Below are positions 18,983-52,563 of a stretch of DNA of 64,000 nucleotides, one piece after another; position 1 is the stretch's first letter; each line of letters starts with the position of its first letter. The stretch comes from Tubulanus polymorphus (Eukaryota; Nemertea; Palaeonemertea; Tubulaniformes; Tubulanidae). The stretch lies in contig NC_134030.1 of NCBI RefSeq assembly GCF_964204645.1, forward strand, positions 17,489,110 to 17,553,109, read 5' to 3'. The translations under genes were made by a program, and so were the position numbers. The notes under the pieces were generated by a model, which was not told the DNA's origin, did no database searches, and saw nothing but the letters and a program-made list of their open reading frames with translations.

Positions 18983-19012
18983 TGACGTCACCGTGCATGG
19001 AGGATGACGTCA
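18983..19012. promoter_or_regulatory. Paired CRE-like palindromes in LTR
   Basis: TGACGTCA at 18983-18990 and 19005-19012, 22 bp apart, also present in the 5' LTR at 26562-26569 and 26584-26591. TGACGTCA is the full CREB/ATF site. In element orientation they lie in the first third of the LTR, where U3 enhancers normally sit; a TATA-type word (TTTATAGA, plus-strand reading) is next to them. Regulatory role inferred. Confidence 0.5.
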
Positions 19013-19337
19013 CACAGCACAAAAACATGGCCGCCGCGCAAAAGCTCCGAGTTTAAAAGTTTAGACGACTGTACAAATAGTAAATCGGGATCTTACATAG
19101 TAGAATAAGGTGAGAGCGAAAAGTGATCAACCTAAAGTTTTGATTGTTAAAAGCTGAAATTAATTATACTACTATATGCAGAGAAAATGAGGTGCACAGA
19201 ATGTGAAATGAAAGGGGCGAGCTAATTATCGCCCAAAAACATTACAATTAAAAAAAATGAGGAGGGCTCCGTAGCGGAAAAACAAACTATACATTAACGA
19301 CAACATTTTAAACTATTTAACAGGAATTTCCGCTACA

Positions 19338-19352
19338 CAGCCCCCCACCAGC
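19338..19352 (-). other. Polypurine tract of gypsy element
   Basis: Immediately inside the 3' LTR the minus strand reads GGTGGGGGGCTGTG, a purine-rich run at the position where plus-strand DNA synthesis is primed. Confidence 0.75.
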
Positions 19353-19623
19353 CCTGAATGTCCCCATTCAGAACAGGCGACCAAACTACATATAAAAAAA
19401 AGGAAAATACATTATCACATAAAATACGTTACATCAACAATATTACATTAACAGTCAGCAGGACTTCTACGATCACGAACTAGGCGCAAAGTTTTTCGAT
19501 CATACGGTCTTTCATCTCTTCTTGAATTGTACAAAATTTGCAGTCAAATCGGTCACCGGGTCGACCCTCAATCGAAATAGTGCCGCCCCACAGTTCATGC
19601 CGGTGAATGACACGAATCGGAAC

Positions 19624-20328
19624 TCACGGATCGCTGGGCGCTGTTGTTGAGTTGTCTAAAGGAATTAGTTTCCACGCGTCGTTTGCGGTGGGCATATCTG
19701 TAGAAACGGAAGATGCGGAATCGGACGGAATCGGAATTTGATTATTAATGGCTACCGGTTCGACGGGTTTCCTCTTACTTATCAATACAGTTCTTGATAC
19801 ATGGTCTTCGTTCACGGACGGTTTCGTAATTGGAACAGAATCGGCAGGTTCTGGAATGACATCGTCGAGGTCATCGAACAATTTGGCAAATTCGATGTCC
19901 ATGTCATCCAAGGTTAGTATCGGCATGTCTGCAAAATTTTCTTCATCTTTCGTTGTCGATTTTACGGCCGCGGGTGCGGGGTCTGTATTTATTTTCGAGA
20001 CCGCGCTTTTTAATACCGGTTTCGACTCCGATTCTTCGAGCAGCTTGATTAAGCTTAGGTATTTCGATCCATTGTCTTTGAAAATCTTATAGTGTTTGGT
20101 TTCTATGTGAGCTTTCACCTCTTCCCGGTCTTCCGCTCCTTCACCGCGCGTCATACATCTATAGAACCTCTTAAATATAAATGGAGACAAACCAGCCCGA
20201 GATTTGTACGGTGCACAATAAAACTCGAGATGTCTCTTCTTGTTGTAATTGGCAGAAAATTTTCGCTTGCAATACTTGCAGTACCAATTTGCGGGTCGTC
20301 GGTTCTCTTTCATTGCGTTAGTCTTCAT
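19624..20328 (-). CDS. Gypsy ORF3: zinc-finger protein from spliced mRNA
   Basis: The open frame reaches back to 20499, overlapping the end of pol, but the meaningful start is probably Met at 20328 (MKTNAMKENRR). Just upstream on the minus strand is a strong acceptor, CCTGTTTTCTTTCCTTTCAG, ending at 20337, after the pol stop. The protein (234 residues from that Met) has a C2HC/C2H2-like finger, WYCKYCKRKFSANYNKKRHLE, then a second C...H...H-like segment, and a strongly acidic stretch (DDMDIEFAKLFDDLDDVIPE) followed by a Ser/Thr/Pro-rich tail. It has no signal peptide or membrane helix, so it is not an envelope protein. DNA or RNA binding with an acidic activation-like region is a reasonable inference. 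It occupies the env position. Confidence 0.7.
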   Translation of the reverse strand: MKTNAMKENRRPANWYCKYCKRKFSANYNKKRHLEFYCAPYKSRAGLSPFIFKRFYRCMTRGEGAEDREEVKAHIETKHYKIFKDNGSKYLSLIKLLEESESKPVLKSAVSKINTDPAPAAVKSTTKDEENFADMPILTLDDMDIEFAKLFDDLDDVIPEPADSVPITKPSVNEDHVSRTVLISKRKPVEPVAINNQIPIPSDSASSVSTDMPTANDAWKLIPLDNSTTAPSDP

Positions 20329-20377
20329 GACTTCAACTGAAAGGAAAGAAAACAGGCCAGAGATTAGAACAACAGTC

Positions 20378-23300
20378 TCAGTCCCAACCCATGCGTTTGG
20401 GTGGGCGAATAGGACGCCCAGTTCTCGTTTGGTACGGTTGACAGTTGAGATTTGGATCGTCGCTAGGTGAAACATCGTTGCCTCGAGAAAAGACATCATT
20501 AGTTACGAGATACTCTTTTAATCGGTCACTATGGACGCATTTCTCCTTCCCGGAGGGAAGCCTGACACGAAAAATTACATCGTTAAAATTCTCAAGTATG
20601 GTACATGGCCCAGACCATAAGCATGATAGCTTTTTCGTTCTACCCGGCATTGTGGAAGGGGTATACAGCCAGACTCTAGAATCTATCGCAAATGTGTGTG
20701 GTTTAGATTTGACATTGTATTGTGTTTTGTTTCTTTCAGCTCGCTTATGAGTTTGTATGCGGACCTCGTGAAAAGACTCTGATAACCGGTGCTTCATTTC
20801 AATAACGTATTGACTGCTGATGACTGGAATTTCGCAGCGAGGACCACCTGTGATAACGTCAATGGGTAGGTCAATTTCACGACCCAACATCAATCGGTTT
20901 GGGCTAAACCCAGTTGCATCGTGTATCGTCGCCCTGTACGCCATGGTGACGTATGGTAAGTGTTGGTCCCAGTCCATCTGGTTTTCTTCAACCTTAATAG
21001 ACAGACACATTAACAATGTTCGGTTATAACGTTCGATCATTCCATTCGATTGGGGACGAAATGCGGTACTTCTGGTTTTATGGATTTGAAGGAGTTCACA
21101 CACTTCCGCCATCAATTTGGACTGGAAGTTTCGACCTTGGTCCGAATGTATGATTCTGGGGACGCCAAATCGAGTAATAAACTCGTCTACGAGTATCCGG
21201 GCGCAAGTTACTGCTTCTTGGTTCGGAATTGCGTATGCTTCGATCCACTTCGTAAAATAGTCACCAATAACTAATATATAGATGTTTCCATCATATGTTT
21301 CAGGTAATGGACCCAATATATCCATCGATACTCTCTCCATAGGTTGGCCTACCAGATAGTTGTTCATGGGTGCTTTTAATCTACTGGAGGACTTCTTTGA
21401 AGCGCACTTATCACACCCTCTACAGAAACACTTTACGTCATCACCGATACCGTGCCAAAAAAAACGATCGTGAACTAAAAAGAGGGTCTTTTTGACACCA
21501 AAGTGACCCCCGACTGCAGATGAATGAATATGGTCGAGGACTTGCTTCCTAAACTTTTCAGGTAAGATTAATAGAGTTGAGTCCGGGTAACCTTCTCTTC
21601 TCTTTATAATGTGTAAGAGCCCCTCAATCATTTTCAGATCATTCCAGTGGGTCCAATAAAATTTGCAGGCAACACCTTGTGAGGAAACTTGATGCCATCC
21701 GGGACGTTCATCATCTCGGATGTGAGCAAGGACCCATTTCAAGTCTCTTTCTTTCCCCTGTTCTAGTTTCATATTCTCGAGTGACCACTCTGACGACGGT
21801 AAGAACTCGCTGTAGGAATACGGCTTGTCGTTGTGAATTGTCATTTTCTTAACTGCTCGTTTCCTCACAGATATTGGTGTTTGTTTTTCAGAACAGATTC
21901 CTTCAATCCTCTCGCACTGACGACAGGGCATGCGCGATAGAGCATCAGCGTTACCATGGCTTCGACCCAGTCGGTGTACGATGTCGAACTGGTATGCACT
22001 CAGTAGAGATATCCAGCGAGCTACTTGGCCTTCTGGTTCTTTAAACGACATCAGCCACCTCAAGGATGAATGGTCAGTCCGGATTGTGAATTTCTTGTCG
22101 GCAAGGTAATATTTGAACTGTTTTACAAAGGCGACGACAGCTAAAAGCTCCCTGCGGGTCACGCAATAATTCCTCTCGGCTTTCGTTAAACAACGGCTAG
22201 CACAGGCGATAATTCTCTCCTTGCCCTCTTGAACTTGACTGACGACACCTCCAATTGCGAATGCTGACGCATCAGTGTCCAGGATAAACGGTAACCTTGG
22301 ATCGGGAAAAGCCAGAACTGGTGAGTGAGTCAAAATTGACTTCAGCTCACGGAAAGCTTCTTCGCATTGGACATCCCATCTGAATTCCCTCCCCTTTTCC
22401 GTCAGCCGATGAAGAGGTTTTGCAGTTTCAGCGAACCCTTGGCAAAACGACCGATAGTATGATGCTAAACCAAGGAAAGATCGAGTCTCTGTGACGTTTT
22501 TAGGAGTGGGCCAATTCTGGATTATTTCGATTTTGCTTTCTGAACATGATATACCATCAGCGGAGATATGGTGTCCAAGAAAATTGACTGACGTTCTAAA
22601 CAGCTCACATTTCTTAGGTTTTAGTTTTAGGCCAGCCTGTCGCAGACGGTTGAAGACAGTACGTAGGTTGGTCATCATCCCAAGGAAACTACCAGCATGA
22701 ACAATAACGTCGTCCAGGTAAACCAGAGCAATTTCTGGGATAAGACTTCTGAATACCTTTTCCATTAGCCTTTGAAAAGTGGCACCACTATTCTTCAAGC
22801 CCATGGGCATCTTACGGAATTGGTATAGGCCTTTCCCGCCCACAACAAAAGCTGTCTTTTCCTTAGAGTTTTCGTGTACCTTCACCTGCCAGTATCCCGA
22901 TGCTAGATCAAGGGTGCTGAGGTACTTCACGTCAGCCAGTGATCTGATAGTGTCGTTGATAATAGGTAAAGGATAACTATCTGCCTTGGTTACAGCATTA
23001 ACATCACGATAATCTAAACACAGTCGAATAGTGTTATCCGGCTTACGAACCACGACAATACTGCTGCACCACGGACTATCAGATTCTTCAATCACGCGTG
23101 CTTTCAGCATGTCATCGACTAACTTATTGACTTCTTGTGTTGCTAGGGGCAACCGCCGAAAGTGTTGTTTTGTCGGAACAGCGTTACCTACGTCGATGAC
23201 GTGTGAAGTCTCTGAGGCCTCTCCAAGATCTAAATTAGAGGAGGCGAAAACGTCCGAAAATTCAGATAGTAGTTGTTTCACATCGTGACATTCATCAGTG

Positions 23301-24211
23301 GACAGACCTTCGCAACTCCGGTGGTACAAATCTTGTAGAAATTCAGGTAATTGGTCGTTTGAATTCGACGTTTTCGATGTACTAGTTTCAGTATATATTT
23401 TAGAAATTTGTCCGATTACCCCTAAGGGTGTCCCTTTATGAATGATCTTCGGATGCGAGCTAAGGTTCACCATACGAACAGGAATATGACTACTATTTAT
23501 ATTAACGACCTCTTTAGCGACGAGTACTTCTGGCCCTAGCCTCCAGTTGTTGCTAGATTCTATTAAACCCCATTGTCCAGGTGGTAACGCCGTCTTTACA
23601 TGACCCGATACCACAACTTCAGAATTCGGAGGTAAGACTAATTTCTCATAGTTACGAACGTAGGTAGAGTTCTGTTCGAGATGGCCCGTCGGATTAGAAA
23701 AAGCTTGATTCCCCCGGCATGTCACAGTGCCGGTACCCGGGTGGATATGGCAGTCATATGCGACAAGAAAATCCATTCCTAGAATAGCATCATCTGTGAT
23801 GTCAGCGACTATCACGTCCCACATTATGTTAGAAGAAAAGAGACCCAACGGAACTCTAGCTGTCCCTGCGACATCCAGGGAGCTATTATCAGCAGTATAT
23901 AAATTATACTTTGTGTCCCTCAAGGTGAGTTTCTTCTTTTCGCTGATTTCAGAAAATAATTTCTTACTCCACACTGTGAAGTGTGCGCCCGTATCTACTA
24001 AATACTTCGTGTCACGGCCGAGAATTCTTGCAGACAGATGTATAGATTCAGGTAAAGCATTCTCATATGAAAGAACCTTGATCTTTCCTGGCTGATTAAA
24101 TTCGATAGGTAGGTGAGGATGTGTCTGTCCGGGTGTTACCCCTTCCCTCTCAGGAGTAACGGTATCTAGTTTCCCTGCTTCTTTGTGTAACTCGACTTGG
24201 ATTGTTCCCAT
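20378..24211 (-). CDS. pol: Gypsy pol polyprotein (1277 aa)
   Basis: Open from 24211 to 20378. In order: aspartic protease with YLVDTGAHFTVW (Asp near residue 73); reverse transcriptase with LCLDYRDVNAVTKADSYPLP, the KMPMGLKNSGATFQ block and the YLDD active site (ALVYLDDVIVHA, near residue 500); RNase H with LDTDASAFAIGG, RRELLA and TDHSSLRWL; integrase with an H2C2 zinc-binding module (HIHSSAVGGHFGVKKT ... CDKC), catalytic D (MDILGPL), D (HSDQGRNFQ) and E (RPQSNGMIERYNRTL); and a GPY/F-like module (LSCLWSGPCTILENF). All catalytic residues are present. It overlaps the end of gag by 46 bases in a different frame, so a frameshift or reinitiation is needed for its expression. Confidence 0.97.
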   Translation of the reverse strand: MGTIQVELHKEAGKLDTVTPEREGVTPGQTHPHLPIEFNQPGKIKVLSYENALPESIHLSARILGRDTKYLVDTGAHFTVWSKKLFSEISEKKKLTLRDTKYNLYTADNSSLDVAGTARVPLGLFSSNIMWDVIVADITDDAILGMDFLVAYDCHIHPGTGTVTCRGNQAFSNPTGHLEQNSTYVRNYEKLVLPPNSEVVVSGHVKTALPPGQWGLIESSNNWRLGPEVLVAKEVVNINSSHIPVRMVNLSSHPKIIHKGTPLGVIGQISKIYTETSTSKTSNSNDQLPEFLQDLYHRSCEGLSTDECHDVKQLLSEFSDVFASSNLDLGEASETSHVIDVGNAVPTKQHFRRLPLATQEVNKLVDDMLKARVIEESDSPWCSSIVVVRKPDNTIRLCLDYRDVNAVTKADSYPLPIINDTIRSLADVKYLSTLDLASGYWQVKVHENSKEKTAFVVGGKGLYQFRKMPMGLKNSGATFQRLMEKVFRSLIPEIALVYLDDVIVHAGSFLGMMTNLRTVFNRLRQAGLKLKPKKCELFRTSVNFLGHHISADGISCSESKIEIIQNWPTPKNVTETRSFLGLASYYRSFCQGFAETAKPLHRLTEKGREFRWDVQCEEAFRELKSILTHSPVLAFPDPRLPFILDTDASAFAIGGVVSQVQEGKERIIACASRCLTKAERNYCVTRRELLAVVAFVKQFKYYLADKKFTIRTDHSSLRWLMSFKEPEGQVARWISLLSAYQFDIVHRLGRSHGNADALSRMPCRQCERIEGICSEKQTPISVRKRAVKKMTIHNDKPYSYSEFLPSSEWSLENMKLEQGKERDLKWVLAHIRDDERPGWHQVSSQGVACKFYWTHWNDLKMIEGLLHIIKRREGYPDSTLLILPEKFRKQVLDHIHSSAVGGHFGVKKTLFLVHDRFFWHGIGDDVKCFCRGCDKCASKKSSSRLKAPMNNYLVGQPMERVSMDILGPLPETYDGNIYILVIGDYFTKWIEAYAIPNQEAVTCARILVDEFITRFGVPRIIHSDQGRNFQSKLMAEVCELLQIHKTRSTAFRPQSNGMIERYNRTLLMCLSIKVEENQMDWDQHLPYVTMAYRATIHDATGFSPNRLMLGREIDLPIDVITGGPRCEIPVISSQYVIEMKHRLSESFHEVRIQTHKRAERNKTQYNVKSKPHTFAIDSRVWLYTPSTMPGRTKKLSCLWSGPCTILENFNDVIFRVRLPSGKEKCVHSDRLKEYLVTNDVFSRGNDVSPSDDPNLNCQPYQTRTGRPIRPPKRMGWD

Positions 24212-25215
24212 GGTCTATTGGGAGCTTGTCTTCGACCTCCGAGGTGGGGACAATTGACTCGGATGTGGCCCTGTTGGTCGCAGTTAAAACATCTTCGATT
24301 TTCTGCAGAGGTTGGGTTCTGCGTTTTAATAGCCCGGACGTCAGCGGCCAACCGGGTAACAGCATCCGTCAGTTGTTGGATAGCCCTGGAATCATCAGAG
24401 TTCGCGACAGGCGTGGAGGTGACCGCGTTTATTTGCGACCTGACGTTCTCATGGTGTCGATTATTTTCCATCGCGTGTATGCTCTCTAATTCGAGCGCAT
24501 AATTTACCAGTGCATCATATGAGCATGTATCCTTCTGATACATCAGAACCCGAGTCTCGACTTCTGGAAGGGCCTCGATAAAATGGTTCCGACAGAGGCG
24601 TTCCCTCTGTTTTGGGGTCAAGTCCGGATAGGCTAATCTTCCCATAGAAATGATCGTCTGACCAAGTTCCCTCAGCGACTCGCCTCGTTTACGTCGACGA
24701 GATCGTAATTCTGCAAGATGAATTTCTGCTCTATGGCTTGGTCCGAATCTACTCTCCAGAGCTGCACATAATTGAAAATAATTAGTTATTTTATCTCCCA
24801 TCAGATTGCAAGCTAATTGTCTGGCAGCACCACGTAGATGAGAAAACAGCATATCAGCTTTAGTTGGCGAGTCCCATCCATTCAGACGAGACACCGTCTC
24901 GAACGTTAAAAAGTAATCATTCCACGGTTCATCACCATTGTAACACTCAGGTTTTATTTTGCAGGTCAAAATACGGGACACTTGACCCGAAACATCAGTG
25001 TGGGAAGATCGAGACCTGTTCACTTCAACAGGTCGAGGAAACTCATCAACGACTGGAGCATCAGCGGGTCTAGGGGCCCCGGCATCAGGATAGTCTCCAG
25101 AACTTCGGTTTACGAGCTCAGCAGGCAACAAAGCTCTGTCTCCTAGGACCAAACTCTCGGAGCTACGACTCCGCGTCACACTTCGAGACATCCCTCGAGT
25201 TTCACGACGACTCAT
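24166..25215 (-). CDS. gag: Gypsy gag (349 aa)
   Basis: Open frame starting about 230 bases inside the 5' LTR. N-terminal Ser/Arg-rich leader (SRRETRGMSRSVTRSRSSES), a helical capsid core with WNDYFLTFETVSRLNGW, LRGAARQLACNLM and LRSRRRKRGESLRELGQTI, typical of Ty3/gypsy Gag, and one CCHC zinc knuckle CFNCDQQGHIRVNC (residues ~311-324). It packages the element RNA in the cytoplasmic particle. No stop or frameshift within it. Confidence 0.95.
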   Translation of the reverse strand: MSRRETRGMSRSVTRSRSSESLVLGDRALLPAELVNRSSGDYPDAGAPRPADAPVVDEFPRPVEVNRSRSSHTDVSGQVSRILTCKIKPECYNGDEPWNDYFLTFETVSRLNGWDSPTKADMLFSHLRGAARQLACNLMGDKITNYFQLCAALESRFGPSHRAEIHLAELRSRRRKRGESLRELGQTIISMGRLAYPDLTPKQRERLCRNHFIEALPEVETRVLMYQKDTCSYDALVNYALELESIHAMENNRHHENVRSQINAVTSTPVANSDDSRAIQQLTDAVTRLAADVRAIKTQNPTSAENRRCFNCDQQGHIRVNCPHLGGRRQAPNRPWEQSKSSYTKKQGN

Positions 25216-25442
25216 AATTGCGTTAATAGTATTTCCGGACTATACGAAAACCTATCGTATTAGATAAGAGAAACTAGAGTCATTTCACGCGTCACGCAAT
25301 TTGTATGTATTTTAGTATAACTAACTAATGCGCCTAATGTTTAAGTGTTATTATATATGGTAATCACTGTCATGGGAAGGGTAAGAGAACCAAAAAAAAA
25401 TAGTGAATTAAAAAAAAAAAAAAAAGTCTCTGAAAGCAATCC

Positions 25443-25460
25443 ATCCCACCGCTGCCACCA
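25443..25460 (-). other. Primer-binding site, tRNA-Leu
   Basis: Three bases inside the 5' LTR the minus strand reads TGGTGGCAGCGGTGGGAT, the complement of the 3' end plus CCA of a eukaryotic tRNA-Leu (AAG/TAG type, ending ...CACCGCTGCCA-CCA). Confidence 0.85.
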
Positions 25461-25463
25461 ATT

Positions 25464-26916
25464 TGTAGCCGATACGCGTCCGCGATTTAGTGTCATCCTC
25501 TGGTAGCGACCGATAGGTGTCGTGATCTTCAGGTCTCCTCAATAAGCGTGGCTACAGGGTCCGCCTTGGTCCTGTAGTCCCGGGGAGTGGAACTACAAAG
25601 GGGAAATCCTCAGAAAGTTTCCGCCGAAGGGATGGACAGCTTCAGAGACAAAAAGTTATAGTTCGTAAAAAAGGAATAGGAGAGGAGGAAGCGAGTGTCA
25701 GGGGTAAGTCTTAGCTATTGACCTAATTACACGGACCAGACAGGACAGGTGTCCGCCATGAGGTCTATCGAGTCAGGGCCCTTGACTCGATGTCGGAACC
25801 TCACAGTCACCCGAGCTCCGGCGCATCTTTTCCTCAGGTCCTCGAGGTGTAACATCATATCGAGTGCCTCCCTGCACGATCTCCTCGTCCTGGCGTAGTA
25901 TCTTGCCCCCATCTATGTGTCTAAAGACACCCCGACACTCGCCACTTCATTAAGAATAAGATTTATAAACCTGGCCTCAAGAAAGTGGATCCTACTTCGT
26001 CCAGAAGCCACCCCCCACGACAGTGATAAGTCTTGTATTGAATAATATAGAAAATTATTATTTCAGAAACGGATAACTACTGTATAATTTATATACATAT
26101 TTACATATTGCACGTGAAGTTTTTATCACAATAATTGAATTGTACACCTCATTCAAATAAAAAAAAAGGTTAAATAAATTGTTTCAAAATAAATCATAAT
26201 CTATCTTAGTTATAAATTATTTATAATCTATAAAAGGGCTAGTGCAAGGATCTCTCCTTCCTTGCAAAAATCCACGATTAACGACTCAATGGTCGCTAAA
26301 TTTAGGCCCACGAAGACCCAAAATAATGCTCATGCCATGGCATAAAAGTAAAAAGGTAAAAGGAAAAAGCCGCCAGGTTGACTATTCCCGATGGATTAAA
26401 AATAGGTACATATCGTCGAGTTGACTAACGTCAGAGCCCGGCCTGACCTGGGTTGCCCCAGGCCAGGAGAGCGCGTGTTATTGTTTACCTCAAATCAATG
26501 TGGGTCGAGACGAGAGTGACGTTTGCGCGCGCTGACCCATTTTTATAGATTCCGCGCAGTGTGACGTCACCGTGCATGGAGGATGACGTCACACAGCACA
26601 AAAACATGGCCGCCGCGCAAAAGCTCCGAGTTTAAAAGTTTAGACGACTGTACAAATAGTAAATCGGGATCTTACATAGTAGAATAAGGTGAGAGCGAAA
26701 AGTGATCAACCTAAAGTTTTGATTGTTAAAAGCTGAAATTAATTATACTACTATATGCAGAGAAAATGAGGTGCACAGAATGTGAAATGAAAGGGGCGAG
26801 CTAATTATCGCCCAAAAACATTACAATTAAAAAAAATGAGGAGGGCTCCGTAGCGGAAAAACAAACTATACATTAACGACAACATTTTAAACTATTTAAC
26901 AGGAATTTCCGCTACA
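25464..26916 (-). repeat. 5' LTR (1453 bp)
   Basis: Direct repeat of 17560-19337 without the 118-bp array. Short open stretches at 25727-25912 and 26242-26424 are identical in both LTRs because the LTRs are identical there; they are not genes. Confidence 0.95.
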
Positions 26917-31074: not shown

Positions 31075-31170
31075 TAAGCGGTACTATGGCGGAGAGTAAT
31101 CCAGGAATAAATGCAGAAAATGTTCGCGATGACGAGGAGCAAACCGTCGATAGACCTGTTGAGAATCTGG
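31075..31170 (+). CDS. NLR start-exon copy 1
   Basis: Candidate first coding exon. Acceptor TTGTTTTTCAG ends at 31074, ATG at 31086, donor GAGAATCTGG|GTAATTAT at 31171. It encodes MAESNPGINAENV... and ends in DRPVENL, 28 codons plus one base (phase 1). It lacks the RHIM-like segment seen in copy 4. The ~70 bases upstream (CTGCACTT...GAGATGAAATGACTGA) are conserved in all four copies. Confidence 0.6.
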
Positions 31171-31783: not shown

Positions 31784-31939
31784 TACACGGTACCATGGCG
31801 GAGTGTAATCCAGGAATAGATGCAGAAAATTCTGAAATTGATCAAATCAGTTCAACGAATAAAACAAAGTATATTAAAACCACACATGAATATCACTACC
31901 GTGGAGAGCAAGCCATCAACAGACCTGCTGAGAATCTCG
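31784..31939 (+). CDS. NLR start-exon copy 2
   Basis: Acceptor TATATTTTTCAG ends at 31783, ATG at 31795, donor GAGAATCTCG|GTAATTAT. 48 codons plus one base (phase 1). Starts MAECNPGIDAENSE, ends INRPAENL. The middle IDQISSTNKT aligns with the RHIM-like core of copy 4 but has Ser for the core Gly. Confidence 0.6.
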
Positions 31940-34179: not shown

Positions 34180-34318
34180 TACATGGAACTATGGGCGGAG
34201 AGTAATCCAGGAATGAATGAAGACAATTCTAAATTGAGTGTAAGCGGTGACAGTAATACGAGGATCATAAGTATCAACGCAGTTACACGAGCCATCAACA
34301 AACCTGGTGAGAATCTCG
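34180..34318 (+). CDS. NLR start-exon copy 3, shifted start codon
   Basis: Acceptor CTGTTTTTCAG ends at 34179, donor GAGAATCTCG|GTAATTAT. The ATG used in the other copies (here 34191) has an extra G after it and runs into TAA after four codons. A new ATG at 34183, eight bases upstream, is in frame with the rest: MELWAESNPGMNEDNSK ... NKPGENL, 45 codons plus one base (phase 1). The middle SVSGDSNTRI aligns with the RHIM-like core (Gly, Asp, Asn, Thr kept; Gln lost). Confidence 0.6.
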
Positions 34319-35325: not shown

Positions 35326-35457
35326 TTCGTGGTACTATGGTAGAGAGTAATCCAGGAATGAATGTAAATGAATCGATGGTTCAAATGGGTGACAACAATA
35401 CGATGAATGTATACCTTGGAGATACACAAACTATCGACAGACCTGCTGAGAATCTCG
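35326..35457 (+). CDS. NLR start-exon copy 4 with RHIM-like motif
   Basis: Acceptor CCTGTTTTTCAG ends at 35325, ATG at 35337, donor GAGAATCTCG|GTAATTAT. 40 codons plus one base (phase 1). The peptide starts MVESNPGMNVNES, then has MVQMGDNNTMNVY, then ends DRPAENL. VQMGDNNTM fits the RHIM core ([I/V]-Q-[hydrophobic]-G-x-x-N-x-[M/L]) known from RIPK1, RIPK3, ZBP1 and TRIF, a motif that forms heteromeric amyloids in cell-death signalling. Splicing to the NACHT exon at 37233 keeps frame. It is the nearest start exon to NACHT. Confidence 0.65.
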
Positions 35458-37232: not shown

Positions 37233-39930
37233 ATGTTGATCAAGTTCAGAATTGTCTGAAAGAAACATGTCAACGAATGATCGATGTTGAAAATTACAAA
37301 GAGGTTCCATGGAACGATGAAGTCACCAATTTCAACGACTTCTTCACTCGAGAACACGTGAAAACTCGAGCGCAAAAACGAAACCCGAAGAAAAATGAAA
37401 AAAGTGAGGAGCAGTCATTGATTTTACCCGATGATTTCAGAAAACTTTTTACCTATGGAGCGAGTGATGTGAAACCCATGTGCCTCGTAGGTGAGCCCGG
37501 TATGGGTAAAACCACGCAGATTGTAAAGCAAGTTTCTATTTGGGACAGCTCACCATTTCTAAAAACATTTCCTATGTTATTCTATATACCGTTAAATGAA
37601 CTGCCCGCTGAAAATGCGTGTATTTATACGTACATTTACAAAAATCTTTTGAATCCAGAAATCAGAAAGGTTCTGCCGATTGATAGTTTTAAAGAATTCT
37701 TACCGGAAAATGCAAAAAAGCGATATTTTTCCTAGACGGCTTCGACGAGTTGAAAAGCGAAGGAATACATCGTACACGTGACCAATGAATTACCGAAAGC
37801 GCATATCGTCATAACAACACGTGAGTCCGGGGCAGCAAGATCGTCACTGATCCCAAATTCACAGTTGTATCGATATCCGGCTTCAAAGAGGAAGAAATCA
37901 TCGATATTATGAAGAGAAAATTCCCCGAGCGCGATCCAAAACAGCTATTCTGTGAGCTTGAAGATGCAGCGTCACCTTTATTTAATAGTATCTACTACAA
38001 CCCGCTGATACTACTTATGTTTTGTTTTCTGTATATGGACGAGGAAGAAATTACGATACCATCAAAACTCACCGATATCTACATCGATTTGACATGTTTT
38101 CTGATCAGTAAACGCGAGGGCATCGAGTTGTCGAAGGAATGTTTTTTTGGTGACATCGAAAATTCTGAAGCGCTTAAAGAAATTTGTCAAGTCGCGTATA
38201 AGACGCTCATCGAGCATCAAAACGGCTTCAGCGAAAATCGTCACAAACTCGACGAATCGAGGAGAACGGCTTTGACGTGCAAAGAGGTGTCGCCGCGACA
38301 GAAATCAGACCGCTCCGTCCAGCTACGGTTCATACACAAATCTGTGCACGAATTCCTGGCGGCGGTACACTCGGTCGTGCAATTCAACAACAGTGGTGAA
38401 ATACCCTGGAATAAATGCGCGTTTGAACAACTACAGGACGAACTTGTGAAATATGGTGAATTATACCCGAGATTCATGGCAGGGCTGCTGTATCGTTACA
38501 AGTATAACCGCGGCCTCGGTGAACTTTTCAAGACTTTAATAGATGAACAAGCAGTCACAATAGTGAATAGGCACGAGTCATTGTATACGGTTACTAGGGA
38601 GATGGCGCTCATCCCCGATTACGAATGCTACATCGAGCTCCGATCTGAAAGAACTGTTTTATCTGAACAGTTGTTAATCTGCCTGAATGAAGCCGACTGG
38701 CCGTACGACGCCATTAGTGAAATAGTTCCCTACATGCAGAAAATGTTGTTCGTATCTACATATAGCAGATCGCAGATAAACATGTTCGCAAAAATACTCG
38801 AACACAAACAATGTCAGATCGAGCTAGTTTACATAAAGTATTTTGACAAACTGAAACCCGACGACCGCCGCGTATTAGAAACAGCCATAGCGAGTAACAC
38901 TAGTCTTCACGGTATGATAATACACGGGTCATCAATACCCGATCGGTGCTTGACTATGTGTAAGAAGAGCAAGAGTATAAACTGGTATGTGTGGCGAGGT
39001 AGAATCTTCGACATTGGTGAATGTTACAAGAAACTCGATAATGATTGGATTAAGACAAGTCACGTGATCAGATCTGAAGATGACACGCAGTTGATCAGTG
39101 GTGATACTAACACACACAATACAGTGGAGAGTCTGTTTATTGATACTGAAGTTAGTACGGAACGTTTAGGTAATATTCACAAATCGTATCCATTCTTAAA
39201 ACATCTATATCTCGGATCGTGGGGATATCAGCTCGATGAAAATATAATCAGAGGGCTGATAAACATCATTCCGAGTTTGAAAAGCTTATATCTTAGTGAT
39301 GTAATATTCGATAAGAATTTGATCGGTTCGGAGGGAATAAAAGATTTTAACAACACGTTAAAATCTTCAGACATCGAAACAATTCAGCTCAAAATGCGCG
39401 AACTAACCACAGATCAATGGACAACAGCAATCATTGATAGCGTCGGTTCAATGCCGAAACTAAAACGTCTTATCATTGACGAATTAGATTTACAAATAAA
39501 CCGCGTTGTAGCTCACCTGCCGCGGCTGACTGTACTATCAATACGGTTGCGGTCAGAAGCTGATGGTGACGCACTTGTTCGGTATCTATCATCAGCTGCG
39601 AGAAGTCATTATTTATAGCTATCTCGATAGACCGGAACAGAACAATCGCATCTTACAACAATTAAAACACGTCTCATCAATTCGTTGGTTAGAGTTTTAC
39701 ACTTTACGAGCGCCGTTTAATACACAGCACGATATCAATTTATTCGTCAAATTAATCGTCGAATTAATCAATAATCTTCCGCATCTTTCTGACCTGGATA
39801 TCCTCTGCTACAGCACCGACCCCGATCGACGGAAGGTTACATCACATCAGAACTTAAAAACGTCAATAAAAGACTGAGAGTAAAAATATGGGTTGAAGCA
39901 CCTGCAGATTCATCAGATGAATCTGATTAA
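37233..39930 (+). pseudogene. NACHT-domain NLR exon, several frameshifts
   Basis: Acceptor TTTTATTTTGCAG ends at 37232; the exon enters in phase 1 as (G)AT GTT GAT and reads VDQVQNCLKETCQRM into the frame at 37277. NACHT features: P-loop VGEPGMGKTTQ (about 37484), LPLNE-like FYIPLNELPAEN, Walker B FLDGFDEL (37729-), sensor-like IVITTRE, GFKEEEI, and the helical NYYNPLILLMF-type region (SIYYNPLILLMFCFL). The C-terminal half has degenerate leucine-rich segments (LKHLYLGSWG, LKSLYLSDVIF, LKRLIIDELD). Frames change at ~37720, ~37780, ~37830, ~39580 and ~39845; the last open stretch stops at 39930 after an acidic EAPADSSDESD. With five shifts this is a decaying gene or contains assembly indels. 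NLRs are cytosolic sensors that oligomerise through NACHT. Confidence 0.8.
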
Positions 39931-43986: not shown

Positions 43987-44424
43987 AGTAATAGGGGTAA
44001 TGGGCTTTCAAGCCAAAGGTCGAACGGTCGAGCTCATTAAAAAACAAAACATTAAAAGTAATTTAAAACTATAATATATTTTCATAACCGTGTGCTTTTT
44101 ATATTATAACTAAATATTTATTCTAAGATATCAATAATTTAAATTTTGAATGCATATTGTATTAAATCACATGTATTGTATTAAATAATATTGTATTGGT
44201 CGCTCCGCTTCGCTGCCGCTCCGCTCCGCGACCAATTGATTTATTTACAATACACAAATTCATATAATCAAATATATTTTAATAATAATAATAATTATTC
44301 TATTATTCAACTGAAATACACACGGTTATGAAAATATATTATAGTTTTAAATTACTTTTAATATTTGTTTTTAATGAACTCGACCATTCAACCTTTAACC
44401 TGAAAGCCCATTACCCCTATTACT
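43987..44424. repeat. Left foldback terminus
   Basis: A 438-bp palindrome: AGTAATAGGGGTAATGGGCT...ACCGTGTG at 43987-44096 is inverse to CACACGGTTATG...AGCCCATTACCCCTATTACT ending at 44424. The loop region holds a GC-richer CGCTCCGCTTCGCTGCCGCT run around 44198-44232. Confidence 0.85.
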
Positions 44425-44640
44425 CTTAAAATAATAATATACATGAATAACATTTAAATTGACAGATTATTCAATATAAAAGTGTAAGCTCTTATAGAAT
44501 AGATATATAGATATATTTACAACATTATTTCAATATTCATATTTCTATGAGTTAGATTTTTAAACATTAAAAGTGTTAGTAAAGTGTGATTGAAATAATA
44601 CATGATATAAATCATTGAACTTCTAAAATCAATTTAGTAA
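44425..44640. repeat. Left inverted repeat of the element
   Basis: CTTATAGAATAGATATATAG, TAAAGTGTGATTGAAATAAT and ATGATATAAATCATTGAACT are found inverted at 55785-56000 with few changes. Confidence 0.9.
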
Positions 44641-44657
44641 AAAAATATGTATAATAA

Positions 44658-45332
44658 ATGGAACCAGAATAACCACAAACTATAAATATTACAAATAACA
44701 CTGGTGTCATAAACATATACTACAAGAAGTGTTCTAAGTGTGAATTAGATAAATTAGCTTTAACAGAATTTAGTAAGCGTAAGATTAGCAAAGATGGTTT
44801 TCAATATTGCTGTAAAACTTGCACTAAACTATATACCAAACAATATCGAGAAGATAATATAGAACATTATAATTATTATATGGCAGAATATATGAGAGTA
44901 AGATATCAAACAGATCTTAATTTTAGATTGAAACAATGTTTAAGATCTAGATTAACACAATTATTCAACAAAGAAACACATTCAGAAACACTATCTAATT
45001 TGTTGGGTTGTACAGATGAATTTCTCAAATCATGGATAATATATCAATTCGATGATAAAATGAATATAGATAATTATGGTGAATACTTTCATATTGATCA
45101 TGTGTTACCGATATCTAAATTTAACATGAATGATGAATACAATAAAAAACGTATTTGGGGTTGGAAAAATTTAAGACCTTTAGAAAAGAAGGAAAACATA
45201 ATTAAATCTAATAAACTAGATTTACAGTTATATTGAGAACAGTTAACAAAGGCAAAGAAATTTATTGATCAATGGAACAATGATCCAAATAATGAACAAT
45301 ACGTTGAGGAATTTGATACCAAGGATCCGAAA
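44658..45332 (+). pseudogene. HNH endonuclease with N-terminal zinc-binding module
   Basis: Reading from ATG 44658, codon 5 is TAA; a paralogous start at 52564 has a sense codon there. Beyond it the frame is open: a CxxC...CxxC module (KKCSKCE ... CKTCTK), then an HNH nuclease core with YFHIDHVLPISKF (the DH pair), WGWKNLRPLEKKENI. A TGA at 45234 is followed by about 30 further sense codons in the same frame with similar composition, ending at 45332. HNH proteins of this kind are homing- or replication-associated nucleases in large DNA viruses and Polinton relatives. The frame from 44880 is therefore only part of the gene. Confidence 0.8.
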
Positions 45333-45636
45333 TGACTTATCTGGACAGTTATAATTACTGCTCCTAATAGATAGACAATAGTAGTGAGATATTAAATAGA
45401 ATTCAAATAAAATATATTAAAAAAAACAATAACTTCAACTAGCCATTATTTCTATTTTATTTTTAATATTTTCTTTTTAAAAAAGAATACTTTATATCAC
45501 AAATAAAAAATACTAAAGAAACAATAACTAATACTAAAATTCTTTACCTTTAACTAAGCTAGTATTAATCTAAAGAGATACTGGTATCATTTTATAATAC
45601 TTATAATATTTTTCTTGTTAAATTTCTCTAATATAA

Positions 45637-46233
45637 ATGTCAAAGTAATCGAGTAAGAATAGTATTGATATTGAAAAAACATTAGATTATTTGGGCATAA
45701 GTGATAATAAGGATATTCCAACCAAAATTGAAAATAATATTCAAGTTAATTGTAATATAGATTATGAATACTACTTATATTGTAAACACCATCTTGAATT
45801 ACTAATTGCTGGTGGAAAATCTAAAGAGTTTTTAAATAGAATTATTACTTTTCAAGAATTAGATGCTATGAAACCAGATAAAGTAATAAAACATTTTAAG
45901 ATTTATGAAGAGTCAAGATTAGCTAGAATAAATGATTCTATTTCAGATGGTATTGTCAAATGTTACTCTAAGTTATGTAACCAGTTAATACCAATTAATG
46001 ATGAAAATAAATTATATAGTGATTTGAAAAATGACTATTTAGTTATGACTGAATTACAAAAATGGGTTGGTTATGTTTCATTTCAATTAGGATCGGTTAT
46101 GACATTAATTTCTACTGGTGTCATAACATTTTCGAACATCAAACCTATGGAATATAAATCAGGTAAGAATGAAACAGATGTACTACAACCAAACGCCGAA
46201 ACAGAAAATGAATCAGAACCAAACATTAACTAG
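45637..46233 (+). pseudogene. Unidentified element protein, early in-frame TAA
   Basis: ATG at 45637 is followed by TAA as codon 4, after which the frame is open to 46233 (about 195 codons). The protein is charged and helical, with a hydrophobic stretch GYVSFQLGSVMTLISTGVITF (residues ~145-165 from 45691) and a Glu/Asn-rich tail. Not recognised; position between HNH and integrase suggests a structural or membrane component. Without the TAA being read through, initiation would need a non-ATG codon near 45691. Confidence 0.6.
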
Positions 46234-46238
46234 AATAA

Positions 46239-46605
46239 ATGAGTGATGGAGTTAAGAAAAAGGTTAGATCTGAAAAACAAATTAAATGGGCAAGAGAATT
46301 AGGTAAAGATCTTCAGAATTAAAAAAGCTAAGAAAAGGAAATTAACTGATATAAATGAATCACAGACTTTATCTGATATTAATTCAAATAATAATCCATC
46401 TAATTCTTCTAATAGTGGAAGAAATAATTACTTATATATTACAATTGGATTAGTAACAGTTATTATATTATCCGGTGTAATACATAAATCAAAATTCAAA
46501 TCAGATGATAAATATGATTCCAATGACAATAAACCTATCATACCAGAAAATAAGTCAAATCATAAAGTCACTGAAACTAAATCTAAATTATTATTAATGG
46601 ATTAA
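46239..46605 (+). pseudogene. Small membrane protein, frameshifted
   Basis: Starts MSDGVKKKVRSEKQIKWARE, a basic head; after about 27 codons the frame must change by one base near 46320 to reach a Ser/Asn-rich linker, one membrane helix (YLYITIGLVTVIILSGVI) and a polar tail ending 46605. Basic head plus single helix is common for small virion proteins of Polintons; no specific homologue recognised. Confidence 0.5.
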
Positions 46606-46611
46606 AATAAG

Positions 46612-47703
46612 ATGAAAAAAGGACAATATTTAAGAGAGTTATATTACAACCCAGAAAGTGAAGTATCATATTCTAACGTTTCAGAATTATGGAATAAAAT
46701 TAAATCTGATAATGAAAATGGTGATATAAAATATAGTGAATTGGAATCATGGTTACAAAATCAACCAACATATCAAATCCACAAGAAAATGGATAAAACT
46801 TATTTAACAAGAAAAGTTATGGTTTCATATATTGATCAACAATGGCAAGCAGATTTAATTGACATGAAGAACTTAGAGGAATACAACAAAGGATATTTCT
46901 GGATACTGAATGTTATAAACATATTCAGTAGATACGCATGGTCAATTCCAATCAAAAATAAAACTGGAATAGAAGTGACAAATGCTTTTAAATCTATATT
47001 TAAAGAAGCTATTCCAGATAAGATACAATTTGATGAAGGTAAGGAATTTTATAACAAACATTTCAAAATACTATTATCTGATAACGATGTAGATTATTTT
47101 TCAACACACTCAGATAAAAAAGCATCTATTATAGAAAGATTTAATAAAACATTGAAATCTAGAATGTGGAAATATTTTACTGCTAATGAAACATATAAAT
47201 ATATCGATGTATTAGATGATTTAGTGAAAGGTTATAATAATTCTAAACATAGTTCTATAAATATGAAACCTATACAAGCTAGAAAAGAAGATAATTCAGA
47301 AATAGTTTGGAATAATTTATATGGAGCATTTGTTACACATGATTTCGGAGAACTTAAATTTAAGATAGGACAACACGTTAGAATATCTAAATATAGAAAA
47401 ACATTTTATAAAGGTTATACCCCTAATTTTACAGAAGAAATATTTAAGATTAAAAAGATAATATTAACTAAACCTTTTGTTTATAAATTAGAAGATCTAA
47501 AAGATGAAGAAATATTAGGTTATTTCTATGAACAAAAATTATCACTTGTACCAAATCCAGATGAAATTGAATACAAAATAGAAAAAGTATTGAAATCAAA
47601 AATTCTTAAAGGAAAAAAGTATTCTTTGGTGAAATATAAAGGATATGATGATAAATTTAATAAATGGATTTTATCTAGTAAAATTAAAAGAATAAATGAA
47701 TAA
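46612..47703 (+). CDS. Polinton-type integrase with chromodomain
   Basis: 363 residues, intact. A retroviral-type DDE integrase core: D81 (QQWQADLID), D141 (IQFDEGKEF), E175 (SIIERFNKT), giving a D-59-D-33-E spacing. An N-terminal helical region with ELESWLQNQPTYQIHKK precedes it and resembles that of Polinton integrases. The C-terminus (about 316-360) is a chromodomain (EYKIEKVLKSK ... YSLVKYKGY ... KWI), which can guide integration to histone-methylated chromatin. The gene stops 8 bases into the next frame, so the two overlap. It is the best-preserved gene of the element. Confidence 0.93.
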   Translation: MKKGQYLRELYYNPESEVSYSNVSELWNKIKSDNENGDIKYSELESWLQNQPTYQIHKKMDKTYLTRKVMVSYIDQQWQADLIDMKNLEEYNKGYFWILNVINIFSRYAWSIPIKNKTGIEVTNAFKSIFKEAIPDKIQFDEGKEFYNKHFKILLSDNDVDYFSTHSDKKASIIERFNKTLKSRMWKYFTANETYKYIDVLDDLVKGYNNSKHSSINMKPIQARKEDNSEIVWNNLYGAFVTHDFGELKFKIGQHVRISKYRKTFYKGYTPNFTEEIFKIKKIILTKPFVYKLEDLKDEEILGYFYEQKLSLVPNPDEIEYKIEKVLKSKILKGKKYSLVKYKGYDDKFNKWILSSKIKRINE

Positions 47704-48307
47704 AGATTTATTTATATTCGAACCGCATAATATGTTAGTTACTGGAGTAACCAATTGTGGTAAAACACATTTCATATTAGACTTGTTAGAAACTATTTAT
47801 AAGAATCATTTTGATAATATAATATTATTCTGTCCTACTTATGAAATGAATAAAATGTATAATATAGATATAGTTAAGATAAAAAAGTTTATTATATTAA
47901 ATCCTTAAACAGTAAAAGAAAATTTAGATAATTGTATAAAAATAGCAATTGATACTTATAAAGGATCAAATACATTATTCATTATAGATGATTGCGCAAA
48001 TTTACATGATTCAAAAGTTAGAGAAAGTGAGTTATGTTATCTAGCTTTCTCTGGGAGACATTTTGGGATAACAACATGGGTTTTAAATCAAAAATATAAT
48101 TCAATTGTTAAAGACTTTAGGGAGAATATAAGATTTCTAGTTTTATTTTATAACAAAGATAGAAAATCTATGCAACAATCATTGGAAGAAAATCAAATTA
48201 TACCTACTGAGTTACATGATAAATATATGAATAAATTAAAGAATAATAAAGGTTCAAAATTATTACTGAGATTACAATTTCCATATGAATATAAATTTAT
48301 AAAATAA
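47696..48307 (+). pseudogene. A32-like genome-packaging ATPase, one in-frame TAA
   Basis: N-terminal P-loop TGVTNCGKTHF at residues ~16-26, then LFCPTYEMNKM. A TAA at 47906 interrupts; the same frame continues with Walker B (TLFIIDDCANL), the conserved GRHFGITTWVLNQ sensor region and a QFPYEYKFIK end at 48307. Length (~203 codons) and motif order fit FtsK/HerA-type packaging ATPases of Polintons, adintoviruses and nucleocytoplasmic DNA viruses. Overlaps the integrase gene by 8 bases, so the two are probably expressed together. Confidence 0.85.
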
Positions 48308-48700
48308 CTATTTGTATACCTATGTATTAGATACCCTATTAGATACCCTAATACCTGATACCCTATAAGATACCCTATTAGATACCTTAAATACTTAAAA
48401 CCCCCTTTTTTTAAAATAAATATTATTTATACAATTTTCAACCAATTTATTTTTATTTTTTCAACTAATATATGAATAAGTTTGAAAATAATAAAGGTTA
48501 TTTATTATTACTGAGGTTTCAATTTCCATATGAATATAAGTTTATAAAATAAGATATTTTATGTATTAGATTGTATTAGATTGTATTAGATATGTATTAG
48601 ATACCTTAAATACCTTAAATACTTAAAACCCCCTTTTTTATTTACTATTATTTTATACAATTTTCAACAAATATTATTTGTGTTAAATATAATTAATATC
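48308..48700. repeat. Duplicated gene end and TATTAGATACCC repeats
   Basis: Two clusters of (T)ATTAGATACC words (about 48325-48400 and 48560-48620), each ending CTTAAAACCCCCTTTTTT. Between them, at about 48477-48551, is a second copy of the last ~70 bases of the ATPase gene (FQFPYEYKFIK plus stop). A tandem duplication of gene end plus repeat explains the layout. Confidence 0.8.
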
Positions 48701-49576
48701 TTAATCACTTTCACTATCAGACCCTAACAATCTATTCAAATGCTCTACCGAATCTACATCAATAGTTGTTTTATTTTTATACTTTTTCATCCTTTCTACC
48801 GCATCATCAATAGTTTCTTCTTTATGTTTCATAGAATCTTTATTATCAATATGCTTATCTGTAACTATATCACCATGTGGGTGCCATACGGCACCATTTT
48901 CATAATTATCTTTATTAGTGTTTGCTCCTAATATTTCATTTACAGTGTTTGCTCCTAATATTCCATAAGCATCGGTTAAATCTAATTCATCTTTATTAGG
49001 CGTTGCTAATAATAAATCTTCATATAATTCTTTACCATTTACTTTTTTATTTGAAACATATCTAAATGGGTGTTCTATAAATTCTCTTTTACCAACACGT
49101 TCTATAACATTATTTATATGTACCTTTGTATTCATATGTTTATTCCAATTTGATGGAGCGTTTGAAAATTCACCTTTAAAATAATCACAATAATTTCTAT
49201 TTTCACTAACATTTAATATTATTGCATTATTATATGTAGAAGGTATTACATTATTAGATGTAGAAGGTATTACATTATTAGATGTAGTAGGTATTACATT
49301 ATTAGATGTAGAAGGTATTACATTATTAGATGTAGTAGGTATTACATTATTAGATGTAGTAGGTATTACATTATTAGATGTAGAAGGTATTACATTACTT
49401 AAATTATCAACAACACCACTTTGATCATTATCGATTTCTATTAGTTTAGTTCTATAAATTTTGAAAATAGGATAAAATATCAAAGCTATATTACAAGGTA
49501 TTACATAATATAAACCATCATTATTTTCATGTGTATCGATGTATGGAATATGTTTATATACTTTACCTCCTTCCAT
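48701..49576 (-). CDS. Element protein with VIP(S/T)TSNN repeats and zinc-finger-like motif
   Basis: 291 codons, intact. N-terminal part has a hydrophobic stretch (YYVIPCNIALIFYPIFKIY), then about eight copies of an 8-residue NNVIPSTS/NNVIPTTS repeat (24-bp DNA unit, 49225-49400), then a degenerate C2H2 finger (YCDYFKGEFSNAPSNWNKHMNTKVH) and an acidic C-terminus (DSVEHLNRLLGSDSESD). I do not recognise a family. The first convergent gene after the ATPase, it starts the minus-strand set with the capsid-like protein. Confidence 0.65.
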   Translation of the reverse strand: MEGGKVYKHIPYIDTHENNDGLYYVIPCNIALIFYPIFKIYRTKLIEIDNDQSGVVDNLSNVIPSTSNNVIPTTSNNVIPTTSNNVIPSTSNNVIPTTSNNVIPSTSNNVIPSTYNNAIILNVSENRNYCDYFKGEFSNAPSNWNKHMNTKVHINNVIERVGKREFIEHPFRYVSNKKVNGKELYEDLLLATPNKDELDLTDAYGILGANTVNEILGANTNKDNYENGAVWHPHGDIVTDKHIDNKDSMKHKEETIDDAVERMKKYKNKTTIDVDSVEHLNRLLGSDSESD

Positions 49577-49609
49577 TTATTATATAAATTTTTATTAAAG
49601 TTAAAATTT

Positions 49610-50860
49610 TAATACATAACACTATTCAATTGAGAATTTACCATATTTAATTGCGCGTCAGATATAATATAAATATGCATTTTGAAATTTAGGCTTCCTT
49701 TTTTCTTTGTCATGAATAATTGTATTCCATCTTTAGTGTTTTTGTAATTTTTTTCCAGAACCATGTAATGAATTATCCTCTGTTGTTCTAAAATCTAACC
49801 ATAATGCATATTTATTGCCGGTATAATAATCAATTTGATTAATATAACAATTTTCAGATGATTTCACTTTTTCATTCATAAAATGTTTTCTAATTTTTGG
49901 CCATTGATCAATCATTCTCATTCCTTGACAAAATATTTTATTTGCTATTCCTTCGATAGTTATTTCTACTTTTGTTATTTCAGGATTATAATACTTATCA
50001 ACCTGTATTGCACCATTAGAATATGTTGCAATGGTAAAAAATATTAATATACCTTTAATAGATCTTCTAGGGAAGTTAATATTCTCATTAATAATTTCAT
50101 CATTTGCATTAATAGTTACAGTTTTAAATTTATCAATATAATCATATAATAATGAAAATCCTTGATTGTATTTAGTTTGAATTATACTTTCATAAATATT
50201 TTCATCAGTTACTGTATCATATTCTAAACATATATTCGATAATTTATAACCCATATCTTTAACAACGCTAGATAATACAATTTCATTTACAGGAGCAAAT
50301 GTTATTTCGAATATAACATCTTCTTGAATTGCATATTTATATAAAGGTGCATTATTATTTATCAATTCAAAGTCTAATGGAATTTTATATTTGCTTCCAT
50401 AAATCTTTTTTATCAAATTATCTGCCGTACGATTTACTATTGCGTCATTAGCTCCTGATCTTAATTTATTTTGGTTTTCTGATTGGGTTCCTTGAAATAT
50501 CATATTATTTCTATTTTCTTTAGTTAACCATAAATCTTTATAATGCATAAATAAATTATAATCATCTAATGAGAAAACTGTTTCTGGGCCAATCTTTATT
50601 GTTAATTTTTTAATCAAATATCTTCCAACATTATCGACAACATAATTATTATTATTACCGGTTACTTTTATATCGGCTGATAAATAAATACTATTTGGAA
50701 CATAAAAATTATTTTGTGTTAATCGAGGGATTCTAACATATAAAGTTTCATCAGGATTAATATTTGAAGGGTTATGAGTAATTATATGATGTGATCTTTC
50801 TGCTTTAATAGCATTAGATATTCTATGATTCTTAGAAGGACTTATACAACTCCCACTCAT
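49610..50860 (-). pseudogene. Candidate major capsid protein (F54H12.2-like), 3' frameshift
   Basis: The frame from 50860 gives 375 residues. The start region with YVRIPRLTQNNFYVPNSIYL, DNVGRYLIKKLTIKIG and DLWLTKENRNNMIFQG resembles the F54H12.2-like proteins found in Polinton relatives, which are double-jelly-roll capsid proteins. The reading frame stops at 49733, after a short A-run, while one frame over the coding continues about 40 residues to 49610 with ISDAQLNM, the usual end of this family. So one indel near 49750-49760 truncates it. Role inferred: virion shell. Confidence 0.7.
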
Positions 50861-50879
50861 TTATTTAACAAAAAAATTA

Positions 50880-51623
50880 ATTATTTATTTATGATCATGT
50901 TTACTAATCCAAAAATAATAGCACTTACAACTGTAATTAAAAATAAAATAATATGTTCAGCAGCAAAGTTAATAATGTTTCCTGCAGATTTCAATATAAA
51001 ACCAACAATTGATGCAATAATTCCTGGTAATGCTGCAGTAGATTTTTTAGATAGTTCCCATAAATATATTGCTAATTTCTTTAAACCATCCTTAACTTTA
51101 TCTTGTATAGAATTATTATCATTCGGGGGTTATCTGGTTTATTGGGAGTAGGAGTAGATTTCAGTGAATTTGATATAGCTAAACAAATTGTTGTTAATAA
51201 CATAGTTACAGCTGTTAGAATTGACAGAATTGTTTCAAACTTAAATAATAAATTTATTCTATCTTTGAGTGATATGTCAGAATTTGGTTTTAGTATTAAC
51301 TCTTTAACAACAACTTTTAATCTATTAATATAATAATCATATGATTTTAATAATAATTTCATTTTTTCTTTCTGAAATTCTATGTTATATTCTAAATCAT
51401 CAATTTCTTTTTCTAAATATGCATTTCTTTTTTTAGATTCAATTTCTTCAATAACTTTAAATTCTCTATCTAATTTTAATTGTTCTAATTCTTTTCTGGT
51501 GTCAAATAATTTATTTTCTAAAGGTTTAATTTTATTATATCTAATATGTTTTTCGCGCGCAATTTTATCAGCTTCATTTCGTACACTTACTATTTCTCTA
51601 ATTGTTTTTTTTTGAAAACATAC
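50880..51623 (-). pseudogene. Coiled-coil membrane protein, frameshift at a G5 run
   Basis: From MVCFQKKT (51623) a long charged coiled coil (KIAREKHIRYNKIKPLENKL ... ) leads to a membrane helix (FETILSILTAVTMLLTTICLA). Near 51121 a five-base G run (plus strand) marks a frame change; the shifted frame continues with LAIYLWELSKKSTAALPGII and a second hydrophobic end (HIILFLITVVSAIIFGL) to 50880. The upstream 15 codons back to 51668 derive from the inverted repeat and are unlikely to be coding. Possibly a minor virion or membrane component; not recognised. Confidence 0.55.
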
Positions 51624-51709
51624 CATACTTAGTAAAGTGTGATTGAAATAATACATGATATAAATCATTGAACTTCTGAAATCAATTTAAAAAAAAAATT
51701 AGTATTAAA

Positions 51710-52545: not shown

Positions 52546-52563
52546 TAAAAATATGTATTATAA

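Follow-up and report, generated by a model that had tools for sequence, protein, structure and literature searches.

The window analysed here is a 64 kb stretch of the assembly of Tubulanus polymorphus, a palaeonemertean ribbon worm (C6:17489110-17553109), in which four copies of a short exon precede a NACHT exon on the forward strand (Table 1). The fourth copy follows an acceptor (tttttcag, before 35326), has an ATG at 35337, is followed by a donor after 35457 (G|gtaatt) and encodes the peptide MVESNPGMNVNESMVQMGDNNTMNVYLGDTQTIDRPAENLG. The sequence-only reading had picked out in this exon a nine-residue stretch that fits the RHIM core, and had described copy 1 as having lost the motif and copies 2 and 3 as carrying diverged versions of it. 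The core in copy 4 was confirmed, and the other three copies had been described rightly, except that copy 3 is in addition frameshifted by one extra G after the ATG.

Table 1. Exons and motif of the NLR locus in the window.
Feature	Position	Strand	Description
Module exon 1	31075..31170	+	96 nt, phase 1-1; has ATG; RHIM part missing (NVRDDEEQTVD)
Module exon 2	31784..31939	+	156 nt, phase 1-1; diverged core DQISSTNKT (EIDQISSTNKT)
Module exon 3	34180..34318	+	139 nt, frameshifted; core SVSGDSNTR (LSVSGDSNTR)
Module exon 4	35326..35457	+	132 nt, phase 1-1; RHIM-bearing; closest module to the NACHT exon
RHIM-like core VQMGDNNTM	35379..35405	+	Motif pattern; Pfam RHIM 13.7 bits, cut-off 20
NACHT exon, first part	37233..37735	+	Walker A GEPGMGKT; in-frame join to module 4 (G|AT, phase 1)
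Remaining NACHT/helical/LRR-like part	37825..39618	+	In another frame than the first NACHT part

When the six-frame translation of the window was searched with a loose form of the motif ([IV]Q[ILVM]GxxNx[MLI]), the core of exon 4 was the one match obtained, against a mean of 0.067 matches expected by chance (60 first-order Markov simulations of 64 kb each), and residue shuffles of the exon 4 peptide gave the pattern in 2.2e-4 of 400,000 cases. The exon 4 core fails the stricter published pattern, given as [IV]Q[ILV]GxxNx[MLI] in the accessible text of PMC9440496, as it has M at position 3, whereas paralogous exons fit that pattern. Comparison with the Pfam RHIM profile (PF12721) left the window exon below the cut-off (E=0.046; Table 1), and the exon was absent from the nine matches obtained when the whole genome was searched with this profile. 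Thus, a single match that is rare both in simulations and in shuffles makes the window copy, taken alone, suggestive but short of proof.

Modules 1, 2 and 4 can be joined to the NACHT exon without loss of frame, and the resulting frame ends at a stop (37733-37735) that lies between Walker A and Walker B. The NACHT frame changes before 37825, and because the NACHT/LRR-like remainder continues in another frame the window copy is frameshifted; a further stop lies at 39618. With these two stops, the frame changes and the frameshift of module 3, no intact open reading frame for the window's NLR was found, and the gene is most likely a pseudogene that has probably lost receptor production.

Open copies of the gene were found elsewhere in the genome. 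Open frames of at least 837 aa numbered 18 in a search for NACHT, which is a lower bound because 40 candidates were scored. In 13 annotated relatives Pfam NACHT scored 48-65 bits, well over the cut-off, and LRR models scored below their own cut-offs. A low-confidence AlphaFold model of the family member P0012 (mean pLDDT 51) had NLRC4 as its best Foldseek match (E 1.9e-13, TM 0.23), with NLRP matched too; its C-terminal half alternates helix and strand and has better confidence, and its N-terminal module has no predicted structure. Judged by these matches and by the modelled fold, the open family copies are NLRs, with a NACHT domain that carries Walker motifs and a C-terminal LRR-like domain. 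The pN/pS ratio was 0.50 in the NACHT columns, which on this measure places NACHT under purifying selection, and 0.85 in the LRR-like part. Metazoan NLRs with CARD, Death or PYD N-termini have the same NACHT plus LRR-like core (NLRC4 and NLRP being the best fold matches), but in Tubulanus the N-terminal domain is replaced by RHIM modules.

Other sequences ahead of NACHT were seen in a few relatives. In P0007 and P0010, both on contig C6, a signal-like segment and a transmembrane stretch (by eye) are fused to NACHT-LRR, and weak Ig matches were obtained (Pfam Ig_2, 16.1 and 23.3 bits; cut-off 27), so that these are apparent membrane-anchored Ig-NACHT receptors. P0009, on a contig of 179,000 bases, has about 310 helix-like residues (by eye) with no assigned domain in this place.

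Genome-wide, matches to the exon peptide were obtained at 26 places, distributed over six contigs. Seventeen stretches (16 genomic ones and the window) contain 33 module exons, 24 of them distinct, with a module length of about 43 residues; donor sites that lacked a recognised acceptor, of which there were two (L016, L020), were not counted. Among the distinct modules two have the strict motif (at three loci, L013, L014 and L015), three have M at position 3 and three have an xQIG tetrad; nine keep G-x-x-N but have lost the Q, five are without the motif and two are of other kinds. Among the stretches examined, 12 have modules ahead of NACHT (those of 11 of the 18 open frames, and the broken copy of the window), and an xQ[IM]G core is present in at least one module of 10 of these 12. 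In five of the seven stretches that have NACHT and more than one module, the module closest to NACHT is of the VQ[IM]G type, and the VQIG tetrad is common to clades whose proteins are about 60% identical. Conservation of the core in other exons of the family, a check proposed in the earlier reading, was thus seen at most loci but not in every module.

The RHIM profile itself gave matches within the family. Paralogous modules with the core VQIGDNNTM, reading MVQIGDNNTMNV, exceed the Pfam RHIM cut-off, with two distinct exon peptides scoring 22.1 bits (C56:25384) and 22.6 bits (C6:17608476); four other modules scanned with Pfam, among them one with VQMGGNNTM, gave no RHIM match. Searching the 268-Mb genome with the profile gave nine matches at E<=10, five of them over the cut-off, and three of these five were module exons of the NLR family, two of the three being identical in sequence. 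The other two lay in a protein with a TIR-like region and a RHIM (on C3) and in a frame within an ORF-dense island (on C8). The profile search that had been proposed as a check therefore did not recognise the window exon and did recognise paralogous exons, at three places in the genome. The 13 annotated NLR proteins, scanned whole, gave no RHIM match; none of them holds a strict-motif module, and the model of P0005 begins at the last residue of its RHIM core. A PDB sequence search with the module alignment gave glycerol kinase as the best hit (E=0.85).

The motif is short and the window copy scores 13.7 bits, so one reading is that there is no RHIM here, and that a chance or convergent G-D-N-N-T peptide without an amyloid role, a motif of low information, has been spread by recent duplication. 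The downstream introns (250 bp) of the five canonical copies differ by only 2.4%, and the similarity of these copies therefore stems in part from recent duplication. However, three of the five over-cut-off matches in 268 Mb fall in this one family (two of them identical), the NLR N-terminus is the site of amyloid motifs in fungi and bacteria, and the core is held in common with a RHIM plus Death adaptor of the same genome (see below), so that we regard this explanation as quite unlikely. A further possibility would be a motif of prokaryote type, amyloid or effector-associated (BASS3/EAD-like), that was acquired separately from the animal RHIM and has a partner of its own; NLR-linked signalling amyloids described so far come from fungi, bacteria and archaea, according to the accessible text of PMC12261475, and one of three modules weakly matched Pfam EAD10 (E=0.027). 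That match reached 14.9 bits of a cut-off of 24.1, whereas RHIM exceeded its own cut-off in the same module, and the non-NLR RHIM proteins of the genome share a V-Q-[IL]-G-N-x-N core, which makes an origin of this kind very unlikely.

The exon copies had previously been taken for alternative start exons. This was not upheld, as the NCBI models (P0001-P0004, P0006) splice modules in tandem and in frame, with three modules in P0003, four in P0006 and three of the four present at its locus in P0004, some modules thus being skipped. In stretches with several modules every exon except window module 3 is a multiple of three, with phase 1 in and out, and because of this symmetry several modules (up to four at one locus) splice in tandem with the frame kept. 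Three canonical modules (L009, L010 and L011; two distinct) have TTG in the place of the start codon and a frame that is still open, which fits use as internal exons. On the tandem splicing in the NCBI models and the exon phases, mutually exclusive start exons were rejected, and the best explanation is that optional in-frame modules would give the receptors a flexible N-terminal array with zero to several RHIM cores.

Five single-module stretches (L017, L018, L019, L022 and L023) have exons of other lengths. An exon of 719 nt on C9 (C9:3605385-3606158; L022:386-1159) contains nine 21-residue repeats before its last core, of which eight end in xQIGDK and one in VLIGDK, so that the RHIM tetrad is amplified within a single exon. 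Three copies of one module exon, identical and spaced 2,079 bases apart, were seen at C1:19744858-19749144 near a transposase-like frame (by eye), and no NACHT match was obtained there in the stretches examined.

The spread of module types bears on a reading in which the motif is vestigial, with an ancestral RHIM-NLR whose copies are now for the most part decaying spacers, so that the receptors would signal otherwise or use the modules as a linker array. The losses of Q (9/24 distinct modules) and of the whole motif (5/24) would fit such a history, as would the broken gene in the window, the Ig-like plus transmembrane or helical N-termini of some relatives and the weak constraint on the modules; over all modules with a RHIM position, pN/pS was 0.80 for the core and 0.93 for the flanks. 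Five distinct canonical copies (identical ones counted once) gave a pN of 0.055 and a pS of 0.124 for the core on few changes, and neither comparison demonstrates selection on the core. On the other hand, decay of the motif does not sit well with an xQ[IM]G core kept in all but two of the 12 module-plus-NACHT stretches, with the placing of a VQ[IM]G module next to NACHT in five of seven multi-module stretches, or with the amplified xQIG unit in the C9 exon, and we consider it unlikely that the motif is a relic. We think it probable, instead, that the exon is one copy of a module of about 43 residues, RHIM or decayed RHIM, that stands before a NACHT-LRR core and seeds amyloid formation by an adaptor.

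Candidate partners for RHIM-bearing NLRs were located on C3 and C7. On C7, a five-exon model of 204 aa with canonical splice sites combines the stretch VQIGNNNFATV with a C-terminal Death domain (Pfam 61.4 bits) that is closest to those of PIDD and RIPK1. Its RHIM scored below the cut-off (17.9 bits genome-wide and, in protein scans, 16.0 and 14.1 bits), and the RHIM stretch weakly matched the RIPK3 amyloid entry 7dac (E=2.4). The NCBI version, 176 aa long and without a kinase domain, carries the name 'RIPK1-like isoform X2'. A RIPK1 kinase at this place was rejected as far as could be seen: no kinase match came from the 10 frames scanned upstream (three of them match alcohol dehydrogenase domains), and the five exons give RHIM and Death only. 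By its sequence, the C7 protein has the layout of an IMD-type adaptor, i.e. a RHIM-like motif and a Death domain with no kinase.

The candidate on C3 is a 434-codon open frame with VQLGNSNTM after a TIR-like region; its RHIM scored 26.2 bits in the genome search and 21.7 for the frame. The TIR-like region had no Pfam or NCBIfam TIR match and was absent from the 32 places of a TIR search of the genome. Compared with the worm's own TIRs, it gave a weak match in hmmsearch (5.7 bits; E 4e-4 for one comparison) and a weak one in hhalign (probability 2%, score 20.3 against a maximum of 17.1 in 30 shuffles). No homologue of the protein was found at E<=0.001, in a search in which its own sequence was not recovered either, and the best hit in a PDB sequence search (E=0.35) was unrelated.

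The frame on C8 (231 codons) ends in VQLGNGNTM and scored 22.2 bits in the genome search and 19.4 bits, just below the cut-off, as a frame. The surrounding island (C8:4550888-4553932; L028) is ORF-dense and apparently intronless, and the sole relative in the genome of one of its proteins is a tandem neighbour with 32% identity. The island may be of viral origin; no relatives of this protein were confirmed in viral contigs.

The genome's RHIM-profile matches included no RHIM kinase, and since the exon 4 core is the one RHIM-pattern match of the 64-kb window, an effector with a matching motif is not present beside the NLR. The partners that had been proposed for the motif were thus found in part, as an adaptor with RHIM and Death domain and a protein that joins a TIR-like region to a RHIM but not as a RHIM kinase. 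With this adaptor and other RHIM proteins encoded, the genome holds plausible partner candidates for the NLR RHIMs.

The vertebrate proteins RIPK1, RIPK3, ZBP1 and TRIF have the same RHIM core, V-Q-[IM]-G-x-x-N-x-M, and to our knowledge none of them is an NLR; the Tubulanus motif differs from theirs in lying N-terminal to NACHT and in tandem modules. In human cell-death proteins this amyloid-forming motif serves for assembly with one another. The arthropod IMD pathway, with cryptic RHIMs in PGRP-LC/LE and Imd, offers a second comparison, as there a receptor RHIM is presumed to template a RHIM plus Death adaptor, which is the layout of the C7 protein, but the candidate receptor in Tubulanus is an NLR and not a PGRP. 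The Tubulanus core keeps its Q, whereas most mosquito cRHIMs are without it, and in insects cRHIMs form amyloid even when the core reads VHIG (PMC9531809, accessible text). According to the accessible portions of several papers, some NLRs of fungi and bacteria carry motifs related to RHIM (PMC7889193, PMC12881547, PMC12261475, PMC7885112). In the fungal PP-motif NLRs (PNT1/HELLP) and the bacterial BASS3 NLR systems the receptor is likewise an NLR whose N-terminus bears a short amyloid motif related to RHIM (PMC7889193 and PMC12881547, in part), but in Tubulanus the receptor is an animal NACHT-LRR, the motif is placed in repeated spliceable exons, the window is without a second RHIM-pattern match, and the partner candidates are Death or TIR-like proteins and not HeLo-type pore formers. 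Among animals, RIPK1 with a kinase, a RHIM tetrad and a Death domain has been reported from some spiralians and lancelets (PMC12119088, available sections). The accessible parts of a 2023 survey report Imd but no RHIM in the nemerteans Lineus ruber and Notospermus (PMC9835746), and NLRs have been reported absent from Nemertea in the accessible text of PMC11508797. Among the titles and beginnings of abstracts listed from the open-licence literature, none described an animal NLR that carries a RHIM.

Known RHIM and Imd biology suggests how such receptors could work. Ligand-driven oligomerisation of NACHT would gather the RHIM tails, and the clustered tails would, by analogy, nucleate a cross-beta amyloid that could act as a template for the RHIM VQIGNNNFATV of the adaptor with the Death domain and perhaps for that of the TIR-like protein (VQLGNSNTM). 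By the same analogy the outcome might be FADD/caspase-8-like and NF-kB or cell-death signalling. Modules without a RHIM or without its Q would act as spacers or damped variants, and the signalling threshold could depend on how long the array is and how good its cores are; it is possible that module variants choose partners, as had been proposed. Whether nemertean NLRs form an animal amyloid signalosome in this full sense, signalling via N-terminal RHIM arrays onto an IMD-like RHIM plus Death adaptor with array length and core quality set by optional exons, seems to us an evenly balanced proposition.

If true, it would link the NLR-amyloid design known from fungi and bacteria with the RHIM pathway of animals, and an animal NLR with N-terminal RHIMs would open the question of their common ancestry to cross-seeding tests. 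Two published nemertean absences would need revision as well, that of RHIM in two other species (PMC9835746) and that of NLRs (PMC11508797), as these are stated in the accessible texts. A receptor class is suggested as well for the nemertean Imd-like adaptor, whose receptor had not been found.

The window contains further elements away from the NLR gene. Large inverted repeats surround an AT-rich segment at 44356-56069, where a frame (46606-47703) matches rve integrase and chromo, both just below the cut-off, and this segment looks like a Polinton/Maverick-type element. At 17556-25971 lies an LTR-retrotransposon-like sequence with minus-strand matches to gag, protease, RT, RNase H and integrase and with end repeats that are 99% identical. 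A 24-bp tandem repeat of about 20 copies, which also forms near-perfect inverted repeats, occupies 4504-5137.
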